49,633 bases of DNA from assembly GCF_000422645.1 (NCBI RefSeq), contig NZ_AUGL01000027.1, forward strand, positions 1-49,633, written 5' to 3'. Numbering within the stretch: position 1 is the stretch's first letter; every line of letters begins with the position of its first letter. The translations under genes were made by a program, and so were the position numbers. The notes under the pieces were generated by a model. The model was not told the origin of the DNA and did no database searches. It worked only from the letters and a program-made list of their open reading frames with translations. The stretch is from Ferrimonas futtsuensis DSM 18154. GTDB lineage: Bacteria; Pseudomonadota; Gammaproteobacteria; Enterobacterales; Shewanellaceae. Positions 20,313 through 24,747 of this stretch are shown in pieces.

Positions 20313-21404
20313 ATGGGTTTTAAATGCGGAATCGTCGGCCTGCCTAACGTGGGCAAGTCCACCCTCTTCAATGCACTGACCAAAGCCGGTATCGAAGCGG
20401 CCAACTTCCCCTTCTGCACCATCGAGCCGAACACCGGCGTGGTGCCCGTGCCAGACAGCCGTCTGGATGCCCTGGCGCAGATCGTCAACCCCCAGCGGGT
20501 GCTGCCCACCACCATGGAGTTTGTGGACATCGCCGGCCTGGTAAAGGGGGCCTCCACCGGTGAAGGCCTGGGCAACAAATTCCTGGCCAACATTCGTGAA
20601 ACCGATGCCATCGGTCACGTGGTACGCTGCTTCGAGAACGACAACATCGTTCACGTGGCCGGCGGCGTGGACCCGGGTGCCGACATCGAGGTGATCAACA
20701 CCGAGCTGGCCCTGGCCGATCTGGACGCCGTAGAGCGCGCCCTGCTGCGTCTGGGCAAACGCGCCAAGGGCGGTGACAAGGACGCCAAGTTCGAAATCAC
20801 CGTACTGGACAAGGTCAAGCCAATTCTGGAAGAGGGCGGCATGGCTCGCTCCGTAGAGCTGGACACCAATGAGAGAAAGGCGATCGACTACATGGGTCTG
20901 CTGACGCTCAAGCCCACCATGTACATCGCCAACGTCAATGATGACGGTTTCGAGAACAACCCCTACCTGGATCAGGTACGTGAAATCGCCGCCAAAGAGA
21001 ATGCCGTGGTGGTTGCAGTATGCGCCGAAATCGAATCGGAGATCGCCGAGCTGGATGACGAAGAGCGTGACGAGTTCATGGCGGATCTGGGCATCGAAGA
21101 GCCCGGCCTGAACCGAGTCATTCGTTCCGGCTACGAACTGCTGGATCTGCAAACCTACTTCACCGCCGGTGTGAAAGAGGTGCGCGCCTGGACCATCCCC
21201 GTGGGTGCCACCGGCCCTCAGGCTGCCGGTAAAATTCACACCGATTTCGAGCGTGGTTACATCCGCGCCGAGGTGATCGCCTACGACGACTACGTCGAAC
21301 TGGGGGGCGAAAACGCCGCCAAGGAAGCCGGTAAAAAACGCTCCGAAGGTAAAGACTACATTGTTAAAGATGGCGACGTTATCCACTTCCTGTTTAACGT
21401 CTAA
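20313..21404 (+). CDS. ychF: Redox-regulated ribosome-associated ATPase YchF
   Basis: YchF is an Obg-family P-loop protein that prefers ATP, binds ribosomes and modulates catalase/peroxide responses. The 363 residues match E. coli length: G1 [19 protein letters not shown]2/G3 [19 protein letters not shown], and the variant G4 [10 protein letters not shown] in place of NKxD, the feature behind ATP preference. A central coiled region and a C-terminal TGS domain (about 280-360, [20 protein letters not shown]) follow. It is co-transcribed with pth and ends in a terminator. Confidence 0.96.
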
Positions 21405-21430
21405 CCCCCCCGTCTGACAAGGACACTCTG

Positions 21431-21460
21431 AACGCCCCGCAGCAGCGGGGCGTTTCTTTT
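21431..21460 (+). terminator. Terminator after ychF
   Basis: The stem AACGCCCCGC / GCGGGGCGTT with an AGCA loop is followed by TCTTTTTT. Confidence 0.88.
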
Positions 21461-21491
21461 TTCCGGCCATCCTCGGCTACACTTTCCCTCT

Positions 21492-21550
21492 GATTCGGTG
21501 GCGCCCCTGGTTAAGGAGCATTCGCAACTCGACCAGGGGAAAACCGAATC
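21492..21550. repeat. Nested perfect inverted repeat upstream of the tRNA operon
   Basis: Two perfect eight-base arm pairs are nested: GATTCGGT (21492) with ACCGAATC (21543), and inside them CCCCTGGT (21504) with ACCAGGGG (21532). They are separated by a four- versus three-base internal bulge and a 20-base loop. The RNA would be a long stable hairpin on either strand. It has no clear T-tract, so it is not an ordinary terminator. It lies between the ychF terminator and the tRNA promoter. Confidence 0.7.
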
Positions 21551-21604
21551 GGTCATTTTGCAGTCGAACGATGCTTCTGGGCCCAAATCCGTGGAAAAAA
21601 GCGG

Positions 21605-21633
21605 TTGACCCAATCCACGGTTCTACGCATAAT
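21605..21633 (+). promoter_or_regulatory. Stringent-type promoter of the tRNA operon
   Basis: TTGACC, 17 bases, then CATAAT, followed by a GC-rich discriminator (ACGCCCCGC) typical of stable-RNA promoters under ppGpp control. The first tRNA begins about 35 bases after the predicted start. Confidence 0.78.
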
Positions 21634-21673
21634 ACGCCCCGCTTCCCACGATGGGGAGAGAAAACAAAACGAT

Positions 21674-21750
21674 GGCTACGTAGCTCAGCTGGTTAGAGCA
21701 CAGCACTCATAATGCTGGGGTCGCAGGTTCAAGTCCCGCCGTAGCTACCA
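21674..21750 (+). tRNA. tRNA-Met (elongator, anticodon CAT)
   Basis: A 77-base elongator tRNA-Met with encoded CCA. The anticodon loop is CTCATAA. The acceptor stem GGCTACG pairs with CGTAGCT, leaving a G1-U72 wobble at the end of the helix; the second copy at 21885 has the normal G1-C72. It is first in the tRNA operon. Confidence 0.95.
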
Positions 21751-21801
21751 TCTCCTTTTCGAGATGGATAGAGACTTCTCTTAACGTTTGTTTTCATCTG
21801 T

Positions 21802-21876
21802 TGGGCTATCGCCAAGCGGTAAGGCAGCGGGTTTTGATCCCGCCATTCCCAGGTTCGAATCCTGGTAGCCCAGCCA
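21802..21876 (+). tRNA. tRNA-Gln (anticodon TTG)
   Basis: A 75-base tRNA-Gln beginning TGGGCTATCGCCAAG, with anticodon loop TTTTGAT (TTG) and encoded GCCA end. Three intact copies of this gene lie in the operon and appear identical. Confidence 0.95.
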
Positions 21877-21884
21877 TTTTTCGT

Positions 21885-21961
21885 GGCTATGTAGCTCAGC
21901 TGGTTAGAGCACAGCACTCATAATGCTGGGGTCGCAGGTTCAAGTCCCGCCATAGCCACCA
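21885..21961 (+). tRNA. tRNA-Met (elongator, anticodon CAT)
   Basis: Second elongator tRNA-Met, 77 bases. It is identical to the first in the body but differs by a compensated pair in the acceptor stem (GGCTATG / CATAGCC) and has a normal G1-C72. It starts nine bases after the preceding tRNA-Gln. Confidence 0.95.
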
Positions 21962-21994
21962 TTATTTCGTTGCCCGCAACGACATAACTCCTGT

Positions 21995-22079
21995 GCGGGA
22001 GTGGCGGAATTGGTAGACGCGCCAGATTTAGGTTCTGGTATCGCAAGGTGTGAGAGTTCAAGTCTCTCCTCCCGCACCA
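21995..22079 (+). tRNA. tRNA-Leu (anticodon TAG)
   Basis: An 85-base class II tRNA beginning GCGGGAGTGGCGGAA, with anticodon loop ATTTAGG (TAG), a long variable arm and encoded ACCA. It closely resembles E. coli leuW, which is also in a Met-Leu-Gln operon. Confidence 0.95.
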
Positions 22080-22090
22080 TTTAATTCAGT

Positions 22091-22165
22091 TGGGCTATCG
22101 CCAAGCGGTAAGGCAGCGGGTTTTGATCCCGCCATTCCCAGGTTCGAATCCTGGTAGCCCAGCCA
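22091..22165 (+). tRNA. tRNA-Gln (anticodon TTG)
   Basis: Second intact 75-base tRNA-Gln copy, with encoded GCCA, 12 bases after tRNA-Leu. The sequence matches the copy at 21802. Confidence 0.95.
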
Positions 22166-22246
22166 TTTTATGATGAGATGGTTAGAGACAACGGGTTTTA
22201 CTCCCGGCGTCGGCGCCCAGGTTCGCAAATCCTGGTAGCCCAGCCA
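22166..22246 (+). pseudogene. Decayed tRNA-Gln copy with a TTA anticodon loop
   Basis: The 3' part (CCAGG... CCTGGTAGCCCAGCCA) is clearly derived from tRNA-Gln, and a D-arm-like GGTTAGAGA remains upstream. The 5' acceptor strand TGGGCTA is gone, and the T loop has gained two bases (TTCGCAAAT). The anticodon arm CGGG-TTTTACT-CCCG still pairs but would present TTA, complementary to the UAA stop. With no acceptor stem it should not be a working tRNA. Confidence 0.75.
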
Positions 22247-22287
22247 TCTTTCAAGTGGCTGCATCTGGCACCCATTTAACAATTTGT

Positions 22288-22362
22288 TGGGCTATCGCCA
22301 AGCGGTAAGGCAGCGGGTTTTGATCCCGCCATTCCCAGGTTCGAATCCTGGTAGCCCAGCCA
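22288..22362 (+). tRNA. tRNA-Gln (anticodon TTG)
   Basis: Third intact tRNA-Gln, 75 bases. It is the last complete tRNA of the operon and is followed ten bases later by the first terminator hairpin. Confidence 0.95.
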
Positions 22363-22372
22363 TCTTTCAAAG

Positions 22373-22396
22373 AACCAGCCGAGTGCTGGTTTTTTT
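22373..22396 (+). terminator. Terminator A1 of the tRNA operon
   Basis: AACCAGC / GCTGGTT stem with a run of Ts. The T-run merges directly into the TTTTGATCCC of the following tRNA-Gln half. Confidence 0.85.
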
Positions 22397-22440
22397 GATC
22401 CCGGCGTCTACCCCCAGGTCCGAACCGGGTAGCCCAGCCA
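22391..22440 (+). pseudogene. tRNA-Gln 3'-half remnant 1
   Basis: From the anticodon loop (TTTTGATCCCGGC) to an intact TAGCCCAGCCA end. It has no 5' half; its anticodon-loop Ts coincide with the terminator U-tract. Confidence 0.8.
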
Positions 22441-22449
22441 TAAAAAAGA

Positions 22450-22477
22450 AAAAGCCTGCTTTCGAGCGGGCTTTTTT
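22450..22477 (+). terminator. Terminator B1 of the tRNA operon
   Basis: AGCCTGC / GCGGGCT stem (one G-T pair) with an A-run before and six Ts after, again running into a tRNA half. Confidence 0.82.
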
Positions 22478-22520
22478 GATCCCGGCGTCAGCCCCAGGTC
22501 CGAACCGGGTAGCCCAGCCA
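22472..22520 (+). pseudogene. tRNA-Gln 3'-half remnant 2
   Basis: The same layout as remnant 1, with a slightly different variable region (GTCAGCCCC) and the same derived T-arm and intact GCCA end. Confidence 0.8.
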
Positions 22521-22530
22521 TCTTTCAAAG

Positions 22531-22554
22531 AACCAGCCGAGTGCTGGTTTTTTT
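22531..22554 (+). terminator. Terminator A2 of the tRNA operon
   Basis: An identical copy of hairpin A1 with its T-run, 158 bases downstream. Confidence 0.82.
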
Positions 22555-22598
22555 GATCCCGGCATCTACCCTCAGGTCCGAACCGGGTAGCCCAGCCA
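22549..22598 (+). pseudogene. tRNA-Gln 3'-half remnant 3
   Basis: It differs from remnant 1 at two positions (GGCATCTACCCTC against GGCGTCTACCCCC) and has an intact GCCA end. Confidence 0.8.
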
Positions 22599-22605
22599 TA
22601 AAAAG

Positions 22606-22635
22606 AAAAAGCCTGCTTTCGAGCAGGCTTTTCTT
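22606..22635 (+). terminator. Terminator B2 of the tRNA operon
   Basis: A perfect AGCCTGCT / AGCAGGCT stem with a TTCG tetraloop, then TTTTCTT. It is followed by a barely recognisable fourth tRNA remnant (TTCCGGCGTTTGCTCCC...AGGTCCG) up to about 22668. Confidence 0.8.
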
Positions 22636-22686
22636 GTTCCGGCGTTTGCTCCCAACAACAAAGGTCCGCGTCTGTGCGGGCCGCCT

Positions 22687-24747
22687 CTACTGTTTATCCG
22701 GTGCTGGCCTGGCGGCAATGGCCAGCATCTGCTGGTAGCGTTCGGCAATCAGATTGAGCTGATAGAGCACAAAGCCGGTCCTGTCGACTCTGCCCTCCTC
22801 CACCAGTCGGTACAACCGCTGTCGCTCCTGCTCGACAGACTCGGGCCACTGGCCACTGCCCTGCCCCTCCAGCGCCTGATTCAGGGCAGCCACCGCCCCG
22901 GTAAGCACCCGGTGGGCAGTCTGAGACTGCTCCTCAGTCAGCTGGATACCACGCCGCGCCGCGGGAGCCAGGGCATTGAGATGGGACTGCGTCTCCTTAT
23001 AGAGCCGAATCAGCTCTGCCGAATCACGGTGACGACTGTAACTGGGCTCCTGACGCATCTGTTCGAAGCTGCTGGTCAGGGCCACCCCCTGCTCATAGGT
23101 ATAGCGGCGAGCCCGTGCCAGAGACAGAGAGGTGGCCTCCTTCCCCTCAAATACCGACAACACCAGCAACAGATAGTGATTCAACCGTCCAATTGCCTGT
23201 CGCCTCAGCTCAGCCTGGCGGCCACCCTGCCACTGCGGCCAGAGATATCGGTACCCCAGCAGCACCACAGCACAGCCAATAACGGTTTCCAGCAGGCGCA
23301 AAGGCATCACGCTCATCCCCTGTCCGGCGATGTACTCGAACACCATGATCAGAATGATGGTGCCCAGGGTGCAGGAGTAGCCGTGGTGCACAGGGATCAG
23401 CGAGAGGGTAGGCGGCACCAGTACCAACCCCAGAGCCAGGGCCCAGTTGCCGGTCAATCCCAGCGACAGCGCGCTGGCCGCCAGCCCCAGCCCCACCAGG
23501 GTACCCCAGATCCTCTGCCAGGCCCGCTGACGGGTATCGACGATGCCACCCCGGACCACCAGCAGGACGGAGAGCAGTGCCCAATACCCCTTGTCCAGAT
23601 GAAAGTACTGGATGATCCCCATGGTCATCGCCAGCAGCAGTCCCTGGCGCACCGCGCCGCGGAAGATGGGCGAGGACCAGTTCAGGTGCTGCCGCCAGCG
23701 TTGCCAGTGATCCATGACCGGCTCCTGACCTATCATCGGCCGGCGGTAGAGCGGCGCCACCCTCTGGGCCAGACGGCTTATCCGCCTCGCGTTGGAGACA
23801 AAATAGGGCGCAATGCTAGCGAAACGGCCTCGCTGCAGCGGGGTCAGGGCGGTCAGCAACTGCTGCTCCACATCCGCCAGTCTCGGGTCCTCCCCCAGGG
23901 GGTGGACCGTCACCAGGTGGTCCGCCACCTGGCGCAGGCGCCGGCTGGTCACCGCCACCCACAGGCGATAGGCGGGCAATACCCCTGGCTGGGCAAACAG
24001 GGCACGACTGAGTTCGGGGTTGGGGATCGCCTGCAATCTCTCCTGCAGGTCCACCGCCGCCACAAACGCCTGATACAGCTCCGGCGTCAGCCGCTGTCGG
24101 GATTTGGCCACCGCCACATAGCGCCGAACCAGGGCCAGCTGCTCAGCCAGCGGCAGATCGAATCGGGCCCCCAGAGAGGGGTCCTCCAACCAACGTAGCC
24201 GGCTGGCCAGGATCACCGCCAGCCGTCGATAGCTCAGGGCCAACGCCTGGCGCAGCGGATACTCCCTCTGGGCACGAAACCACCAGTCGGAAAACAGCAC
24301 CACCCACAGGGCCGCCAAAGTAGTGCCTAGGGCAAACTGCCAGGCCGGGATCACCCCGGCCGAGACCTGGGACATGGCCGCCATCACCAGCGCGGCAAGC
24401 CCGGTCCTGCCCGACAACTCACCAAAGGCGGACAGGGTAGTCAGCAGCACGCCGGCCAGCAGCAGGGCCGGTACCAGCGAAGGAGGCCACCAGGCGCCCA
24501 GGGCGCCAAACACCCAGGCCACGCCACCGAGCAGGGGGATGGACCAGGCCAGACGCTTGCCCCAGCCCGGAGAGGGTTGATCTATGCCGGAGATAAATAC
24601 GCAGGGCAGGGCCAGCAGCGACAGCAGCCCCAGCAAAAACAGGTCCAGGGTCCAGGCCAGGGCCAGCCACAGCATGACCGCCGTGCTGAGACGCAGCGCC
24701 AGATTGATGTGACCGTTGAACCACCAGCGCCGAAAGGAGAGCAGCAC
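22687..24747 (-). CDS. FUSC / YccS-type inner-membrane protein
   Basis: A 686-residue protein of the fusaric-acid-resistance (FUSC)/YccS superfamily. It has two membrane blocks (about residues 12-160 and 375-505), each with five or six helices and each followed by a soluble helical domain. The family signature appears as GYWALLSVLLVVRGGIVDTR and a following QRIWGTLVGLGLAASAL. These proteins are implicated in efflux of aromatic or other toxic acids; the substrate here is unknown. The start is GTG, two bases after the ubiF stop, with no clear ribosome site, so translation probably depends on coupling to ubiF. Confidence 0.82.
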   Translation of the reverse strand: MLLSFRRWWFNGHINLALRLSTAVMLWLALAWTLDLFLLGLLSLLALPCVFISGIDQPSPGWGKRLAWSIPLLGGVAWVFGALGAWWPPSLVPALLLAGVLLTTLSAFGELSGRTGLAALVMAAMSQVSAGVIPAWQFALGTTLAALWVVLFSDWWFRAQREYPLRQALALSYRRLAVILASRLRWLEDPSLGARFDLPLAEQLALVRRYVAVAKSRQRLTPELYQAFVAAVDLQERLQAIPNPELSRALFAQPGVLPAYRLWVAVTSRRLRQVADHLVTVHPLGEDPRLADVEQQLLTALTPLQRGRFASIAPYFVSNARRISRLAQRVAPLYRRPMIGQEPVMDHWQRWRQHLNWSSPIFRGAVRQGLLLAMTMGIIQYFHLDKGYWALLSVLLVVRGGIVDTRQRAWQRIWGTLVGLGLAASALSLGLTGNWALALGLVLVPPTLSLIPVHHGYSCTLGTIILIMVFEYIAGQGMSVMPLRLLETVIGCAVVLLGYRYLWPQWQGGRQAELRRQAIGRLNHYLLLVLSVFEGKEATSLSLARARRYTYEQGVALTSSFEQMRQEPSYSRHRDSAELIRLYKETQSHLNALAPAARRGIQLTEEQSQTAHRVLTGAVAALNQALEGQGSGQWPESVEQERQRLYRLVEEGRVDRTGFVLYQLNLIAERYQQMLAIAARPAPDKQ

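Follow-up and report, generated by a model that had tools for sequence, protein, structure and literature searches.

The tyrT repeats of Escherichia coli and the rtT RNA that they yield have, to our knowledge, so far been an isolated oddity. In the K-12 locus, the final 19 nt of tRNA-Tyr recur at 178-base intervals, with an insert in the T loop, and the likeness of the present DNA to this locus, pointed out in a preliminary description of the sequence, was borne out by our analysis. The K-12 tyrT stretch contains six occurrences of the final 17 nt of tRNA-Tyr, of which two are the ends of intact genes and four are extra copies. In these extra copies AAGGTTCG stands on one side of a long insert and AATCC...CCA on the other, so that the tRNA part is split in the T loop, and none of the six CCA ends has a terminator-like hairpin in the 60 nt that follow it. 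The repetitive tRNA gene/pseudogene cluster of Photobacterium phosphoreum likewise combines tandem tRNA genes and decayed copies.

Published work describes rtT-like elements as BIMEs that can terminate bidirectionally and act as terminators or attenuators (PMC2965389), and rttR is listed as REP-containing (PMC12306157). Two further papers describe 3'ETS-LeuZ of E. coli, an RNA that lies between the CCA of a tRNA and an intrinsic terminator and pairs with RyhB (PMC6191717), and the gyrA gene of M. smegmatis, at which tandem hairpins terminate better than a single one (PMC8355165). A search of open-licence papers by title returned no report of an architecture made of terminators and tRNA remnants.

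The window, i.e., the whole stretch of DNA that we analyzed, comprises the 49,633 nucleotides of contig NZ_AUGL01000027.1 of Ferrimonas futtsuensis DSM 18154 (G000). It contains an operon with the order tRNA-Met, Gln, Met, Leu, Gln, decayed Gln and Gln, with ychF upstream and a convergent gene for a FUSC/YccS-like membrane protein downstream (22687..24747, minus strand; Pfam FUSC_2 5.6e-18, FUSC-like 1e-12). A consensus scan gave one sigma-70-like promoter candidate for the operon, TTGACC-17-CATAAT at 21605..21633 on the plus strand, where 0.7 were expected. The first four tRNA genes are intact and span 21674..22079 (plus strand; ARAGORN and Rfam RF00005). They are followed on the same strand by an intact tRNA-Gln (TTG) at 22091..22165 (ARAGORN), by a decayed tRNA-Gln at 22186..22246 with a perfect 3' end (BLAST, 79% over tRNA positions 21-75) and by the last intact tRNA of the operon, tRNA-Gln (TTG) at 22288..22362 (ARAGORN). 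The preliminary description had placed the decayed halves after the last intact gene; the array does lie there, but the further decayed copy ending at 22246 precedes that gene, and it has no terminator-like hairpin within 60 nt after it.

Downstream of 22362, the plus strand carries A1, a tRNA-Gln 3' half, B1, a second half, A2, a third half and B2, where A and B denote predicted intrinsic terminators. A1 lies at 22372..22396 (stem 22372-22392, T-run to 22396; -10.6 kcal/mol, z -3.78) and is followed by a half with an altered T loop at 22393..22440. B1 lies at 22448..22477 (-17.3 kcal/mol, z -3.92) and the second half at 22474..22520; A2 lies at 22530..22554 (stem 22530-22550, T-run to 22554; -10.6 kcal/mol), the third half at 22551..22598 and B2 at about 22604..22634 (-16.1 kcal/mol). 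All three halves end in GCCCAGCCA. They were located by word scans because the BLAST scan for tRNA fragments overlooked the Gln array units, and neither ARAGORN nor Rfam RF00005 called them as tRNA. Each of the four hairpins is GC-rich with a U-tract directly after it, as expected of an intrinsic terminator predicted from sequence; their z-scores range from -3.75 to -3.92, and for each hairpin 0 of 200 shuffles folded as well. Owing to its A-rich left flank, B2 is terminator-like on the minus strand too (22633-22606), towards the convergent FUSC gene, and in this orientation it is the sole array terminator listed by a simple consensus scan.

The alternation of hairpin terminators with tRNA-Gln 3' halves was therefore confirmed as four hairpins in the order A-B-A-B with three halves, while the earlier count of four units holds for the terminators and not for the tRNA parts: the tail 3' of B2, TTTTCTTGTTCCGG, is decayed past naming as a tRNA half. 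Recounting gave the same 2 mismatches over 78 bases between the A1 and A2 units. The T-runs had been said to coincide with the anticodon loop, and in three units they indeed run into TTTTGATCCC. The pattern TTTTTGATCCC N{20,38} GCCCAGCCA occurs three times in the window and never in 100 shuffles. The three array units of the window retain 16 nt of the 3' end and have a substituted T loop without insert. By eye, the 3' halves are closer to the decayed tRNA-Gln copy (CCCGGCGTC) than to the intact gene (CCCGCCATT); judging from the shared CCCGGCGTC, the Gln 3' half probably derives from an already decayed copy that was joined at the U-tract. A 90-aa ORF (22284-22556, plus strand) runs over the last tRNA-Gln into the array, most of which it covers; it is probably incidental.

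We then compared the Gln locus among relatives. Of 152 genomes of the family, 5 contain the exact pattern, each of them a Ferrimonas, and 28 matching stretches were present in 84,980 species genomes; the three examined belong to F. sediminicola, F. aestuarii and F. kyonanensis. When the definition of the junction was relaxed, it was recognized at the Gln locus of 6 of 14 Ferrimonas genomes (G000, G001, G005, G008, G009, and G012). In all six species the FUSC gene adjoins it, and the five other FUSC proteins are 61-97% identical to that of the window. As six species share the junction, one of them (G012) with a one-contig genome, it is not recent and does not result from misassembly. The search of related genomes proposed at the outset thus revealed conservation at the species level, and the idea of a recent duplication was abandoned. 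A single ordinary terminator stands at the Gln locus of G002, G003, G004, and G011, which we counted against a role in serial termination. G006 shows one tRNA-Gln in another context, and the comparison leaves G007, G010, and G013 unplaced.

The copy number of the Gln array differs between species. The array of G012 reads A-B-A-B-B, and that of G008 has four consecutive A-type units plus a decayed fifth and no B. Identity between A units is 94-97% within G000 or G012 and 79-84% between these genomes; B is 93% identical between them. Since A copies are alike within a genome and unlike between species, their similarity reflects concerted evolution, or homogenization, rather than recency; the 2/78 difference loses its value as a sign of age, as the A units within G012 and G008 are equally similar. 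Nine species have a stem at the equivalent position that keeps its seven pairs while the letters differ, with 63 of 63 cells paired when G-U is counted, in a hand-picked comparison that assumes homology and omits G005, where an assembly gap cuts the first hairpin. One stem pair varies among A-T, T-A, and C-G across the nine species. One hairpin of G005 has decayed to -5.0 kcal/mol, another point against serial termination. By eye, a decayed tRNA-Met, absent from the window, follows the first tRNA-Met in G008 (L006 717-792), G012 (L005), and G009 (L008).

Reading of other tRNA tails revealed a like construction in G000 at tRNA-Cys (two loci), Phe, Ser(tga) (two loci), and Asn, with a more diverged one at Gly. 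The same was seen in G012 at Pro(tgg), where two terminators alternate as A-B-A-B, Pro(ggg), Cys, and Asp, and in G002 at Asp, in 181-nt units. By eye, fusion at the anticodon loop is confined to the Gln array, and the other arrays read join the tRNA part and the terminator elsewhere. Recombination between a U-tract and the anticodon loop had been put forward as the founding event; the junction is real at Gln (TTTTGATCCC), but it cannot explain the architecture generally because other arrays of the genus have the architecture without it.

To count such copies, we scanned for the 3' 14-mer of each tRNA outside intact genes, allowing two mismatches. G000 has 17 extra copies in 11 of 36 loci, G012 has 30 in 13 of 39 and G002 has 16 in 4 of 20, compared to one copy in 1 of 20 loci in another genus of the family (G050). 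Control words (the 14-mer reversed or reverse-complemented) gave 0 or 1 match per genome, and the tRNA 5' 14-mer gave 8, 12, 4, and 2 copies in G000, G012, G002, and G050. Using a 12-mer with one mismatch, we found extra 3' ends of the own tRNA at 28 of 95 loci from the three Ferrimonas genomes and at 2 of 40 control loci from two other genera (G050 0/20, G018 2/20; Fisher p = 0.0013). In this comparison G002, G050, and G018 contribute 20 selected regions each, fewer than all their tRNA loci, and the G012 loci exclude three places taken for rRNA-operon spacer tRNAs. Counts for G000 are lower bounds, as this genome is a draft of 39 contigs with 61 tRNA matches, versus 119 in G012 and 120 in G002, both one-contig. 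Ten G000 contigs (C3, C6, C15, C16, C17, C19, C23, C25, C26, and C27) have an end within 100 nt of a tRNA gene; these ends and the low tRNA number indicate that tRNA arrays probably collapse in the draft.

Two further loci were noticed by eye. At L119 (767-986), a strong intrinsic terminator lies between two intact tRNA-Ser(gga) genes and ends directly before the second, which would therefore need read-through or a promoter of its own. At L122 (1-720), a tRNA-Gly tail has about five modules whose acceptor-like ends seem changed on both strands (GCGCCGC/GCGGCGC), possibly as compensatory changes.

We next analyzed how copies are coupled to terminators, using 62 copies from G000, G012, and G002 (12-mer, up to one mismatch). 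With tail copies defined by the absence of an intact tRNA within 400 nt downstream, 42 are tail and 20 internal. A terminator-like hairpin follows within 60 nt in 37 of the 42 tail copies and in 3 of the 20 internal ones (Fisher p = 2.9e-8); background windows have one in 186 of 4344 cases (4%). The coupling also appeared when terminators were taken as the starting point: 28 additional tail terminators were identified with no regard to tRNA similarity, and 19 of them have a 3' 12-mer of the own tRNA within 40 nt before them (up to 2 mismatches, 15 of the 19 exact), and sampled 12-mers of other tRNAs gave 0 of 28. By genome, these are 5 of 8 in G000, 12 of 14 in G012, and 2 of 6 in G002. The low proportion in G002 counts against serial termination, as do the 17 of 20 internal copies that keep their 3' end without a terminator.

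What the copies keep and lose was determined with 12-nt tiles along whole tRNAs, so that copies were not chosen by their 3' end. In G000, G012, and G002, respectively, the number of copies per tile is 0.30, 0.48, and 0.33 near the 3' end; it falls to 0.026, 0.034, and 0.037 where the tiles cover the T loop and 5' T stem, and the anticodon arm has 0.11, 0.15, and 0.04. The corresponding control values for these three regions are 0.003, 0.010, and 0.018 in G050 and 0.076, 0.042, and 0.039 in G018. Tiles at the tRNA 5' end reach 0.31 (G000) and 0.50 (G012), from only two to five loci. Matches anchored at the 3' end are 18-24 nt long in 40 of 70 copies and 11-17 nt long in 25; the retained Gln segments begin at the anticodon loop. 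A perfect hairpin at the T loop is found in 12 of 56 unique remnants and in 422 of 5711 control windows, but 15 of 65 intact tRNAs also have one when measured in this geometry, so that we make no claim of a universal hairpin insert. Some T arms, though not all, do carry inserts. The Gln modules of G009 and G005 have one of 232 bp (L008 1241-1472 in G009), whose core is a dispersed repeat of about 140 bp with 11 matches in G000, 19 in G012, and at least 40 in G010 (40 of 77 candidates scored), present in 8 of 14 Ferrimonas genomes. Rfam gave no match to this insert up to E = 0.01 at the two loci searched.

Between G000 and G012, the last 20 nt differ at 7 of 241 positions and the interior at 119 of 897 (p = 7e-7; pairs scoring below 0.2 dropped), a difference biased by the search word, as the final 12 nt served to find the modules. 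Outside this word, at bases 13-20 counted from the 3' end, 4 of 81 positions differ versus 103 of 800 in the interior, a weak difference (p = 0.03; pairs scoring below 0.5 dropped). An identity profile from gapped alignments was left unused, as these ran back into intact genes. Spacer and terminator diverge as fast as the interior (67/454 vs. 119/897), and therefore only the pairing of the terminator looks kept, a further point against serial termination.

The analysis establishes the layout of the array, the potential of its hairpins as terminators, the return of such modules at many tRNA loci, homogeneity within genomes and a loss centered on the T loop. We lean towards the reading that the array consists of tandemly duplicated tRNA+terminator units that were inactivated at the T arm and kept as serial fail-safe terminators. 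It is backed by four strong hairpins in series, the kept stem pairing, the coupling at tails, the enrichment in the genus, the homogeneity of A units and the better termination reported for tandem hairpins at gyrA of M. smegmatis. A tRNA+terminator unit would have been duplicated in tandem at the operon tail, and its tRNA part inactivated chiefly at the T arm, presumably because a defective tRNA that is still processed would do harm; the acceptor 3' strand and CCA would remain. A polymerase passing the first terminator would then meet a second, third, and fourth at a spacing of about 80 nt. If these terminate in vivo and serial termination is selected, the row would insulate a tRNA operon that is likely heavily transcribed from the convergent FUSC gene, with copies gained, lost, and homogenized by unequal exchange. 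The good 3' ends of the internal copies that lack a terminator are left unexplained by serial termination. In a bolder reading that we consider unlikely, the genus maintains a module of T-loop-inactivated tRNA with acceptor 3' strand and CCA kept, coupled to terminators at tails, with a functional CCA end and in the same class as tyrT/rtT. Each module would then stop polymerase and yield a defined small RNA, and the CCA end might, for example, set where RNase E or exonucleases trim read-through RNA.

The same arrays could be inert duplication debris, left without selection by unequal exchange at tRNA tails, as a mutational process of the genus, and by homogenization, a possibility that we take seriously while holding it to be rather doubtful. 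Homogeneous A units, variable copy number and the existence of tRNA 5' copies, fewer than those of the 3' end (8, 12, and 4 vs. 17, 30, and 16), fit it, as does decay of distal copies in some arrays (by eye, the third Cys module at L101 and the third Ser module at L105, besides the G005 hairpin). However, stem pairing that outlasts sequence change, loss centered on the T loop rather than random, and, weakly, the low divergence of bases 13-20 argue against it. That the modules serve to yield small RNAs, like the rtT RNA of E. coli, seems improbable. The tyrT repeats have a like CCA end and T-loop break, 3'ETS-LeuZ pairs with RyhB (PMC6191717), and RtT model (RF00391) scores of Ser(tga) modules are 32.2-39.2 bits in G000, where the two tRNA-Ser(tga) tails match, and in G012, where one of two does. 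Sub-threshold matches up to E = 0.1 occur in 10 of 14 Ferrimonas genomes (L105 851-963; L204-L213). Yet the gathering score of 45 bits is reached in none of the 14 (best 39.2, at a Ser tail), positions 20500-24500 of the window give no match up to E = 1, and a conserved pairing seed would not vary between close species as the A hairpins do. Released fragments may, as speculated in the preliminary description, also occupy RNases or CCA-adding enzymes. The anticodon loop and T loop are the usual crossover places of tRNA-targeting integrases. Retained segments that start near the T loop or, for Gln, at the anticodon loop would be expected of attachment-site scars, tandem tRNA 3' ends left by integrative elements. 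We rejected this explanation as very improbable, as the anticodon arm 5' of the break persists in many remnants; moreover, the terminators come with the same spacers that follow intact genes, and an unsystematic reading of the stretches showed no integrase gene. For the architecture as such, an assembly artefact is close to impossible: G000 is a draft with many contig ends near tRNA genes, but the junction recurs in one-contig G012 and in four other drafts (G001, G005, G008, and G009), several with other A-hairpin sequences. Assembly error, named in the preliminary description as what would remove the array, is ruled out by these independent assemblies.

The array is thus real, common to several Ferrimonas species and wider than first noted. 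tRNA operons ending in rows of remnants and terminators look like a recurring design, beyond one E. coli operon. About three in ten of the examined Ferrimonas tRNA loci show a like anatomy, i.e., dozens of natural replicates. These make it possible to compare what persists (3' end, terminator) with what is destroyed (T loop), and to test directly if tRNA operons depend on terminators in series. For a strongly transcribed operon that faces a convergent gene, such a series at its end would be a natural benefit. For annotators, tandem tRNA 3' fragments are not necessarily integration scars, and draft assemblies can break at them.

Among known systems, 3'ETS-LeuZ shares with the Ferrimonas modules its position from CCA to terminator, and tRNA-remnant repeats are not described for it in the available part of the paper (PMC6191717). 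Some Ferrimonas Gln modules recall REP/BIME elements by their dispersed-repeat insert in the T arm, from which the Gln array of the window is free; the terminators are conventional GC hairpins with U-tracts, unlike REP/BIME elements. The closest relatives are the tyrT repeats (RtT/rttR, RF00391), represented here by the tyrT locus alone. Both have tandem tRNA 3' ends, from the T loop to CCA, downstream of their own intact tRNA genes, and over all Ferrimonas loci the tile profile and match lengths show the same break or insert at the T loop with about 20 nt of 3' end kept. The tyrT repeats also place one copy between intact tRNA genes, have a long insert that interrupts the tRNA part at the T loop and contain the tpr ORF, to which the 90-aa ORF over the Ferrimonas Gln array may be compared. 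They concern tRNA-Tyr and have no intrinsic terminators, whereas in Ferrimonas many tRNA families are involved and tail copies come with strong intrinsic terminators. The Ferrimonas arrays are a terminator-bearing, multi-operon variant of the tyrT repeats.
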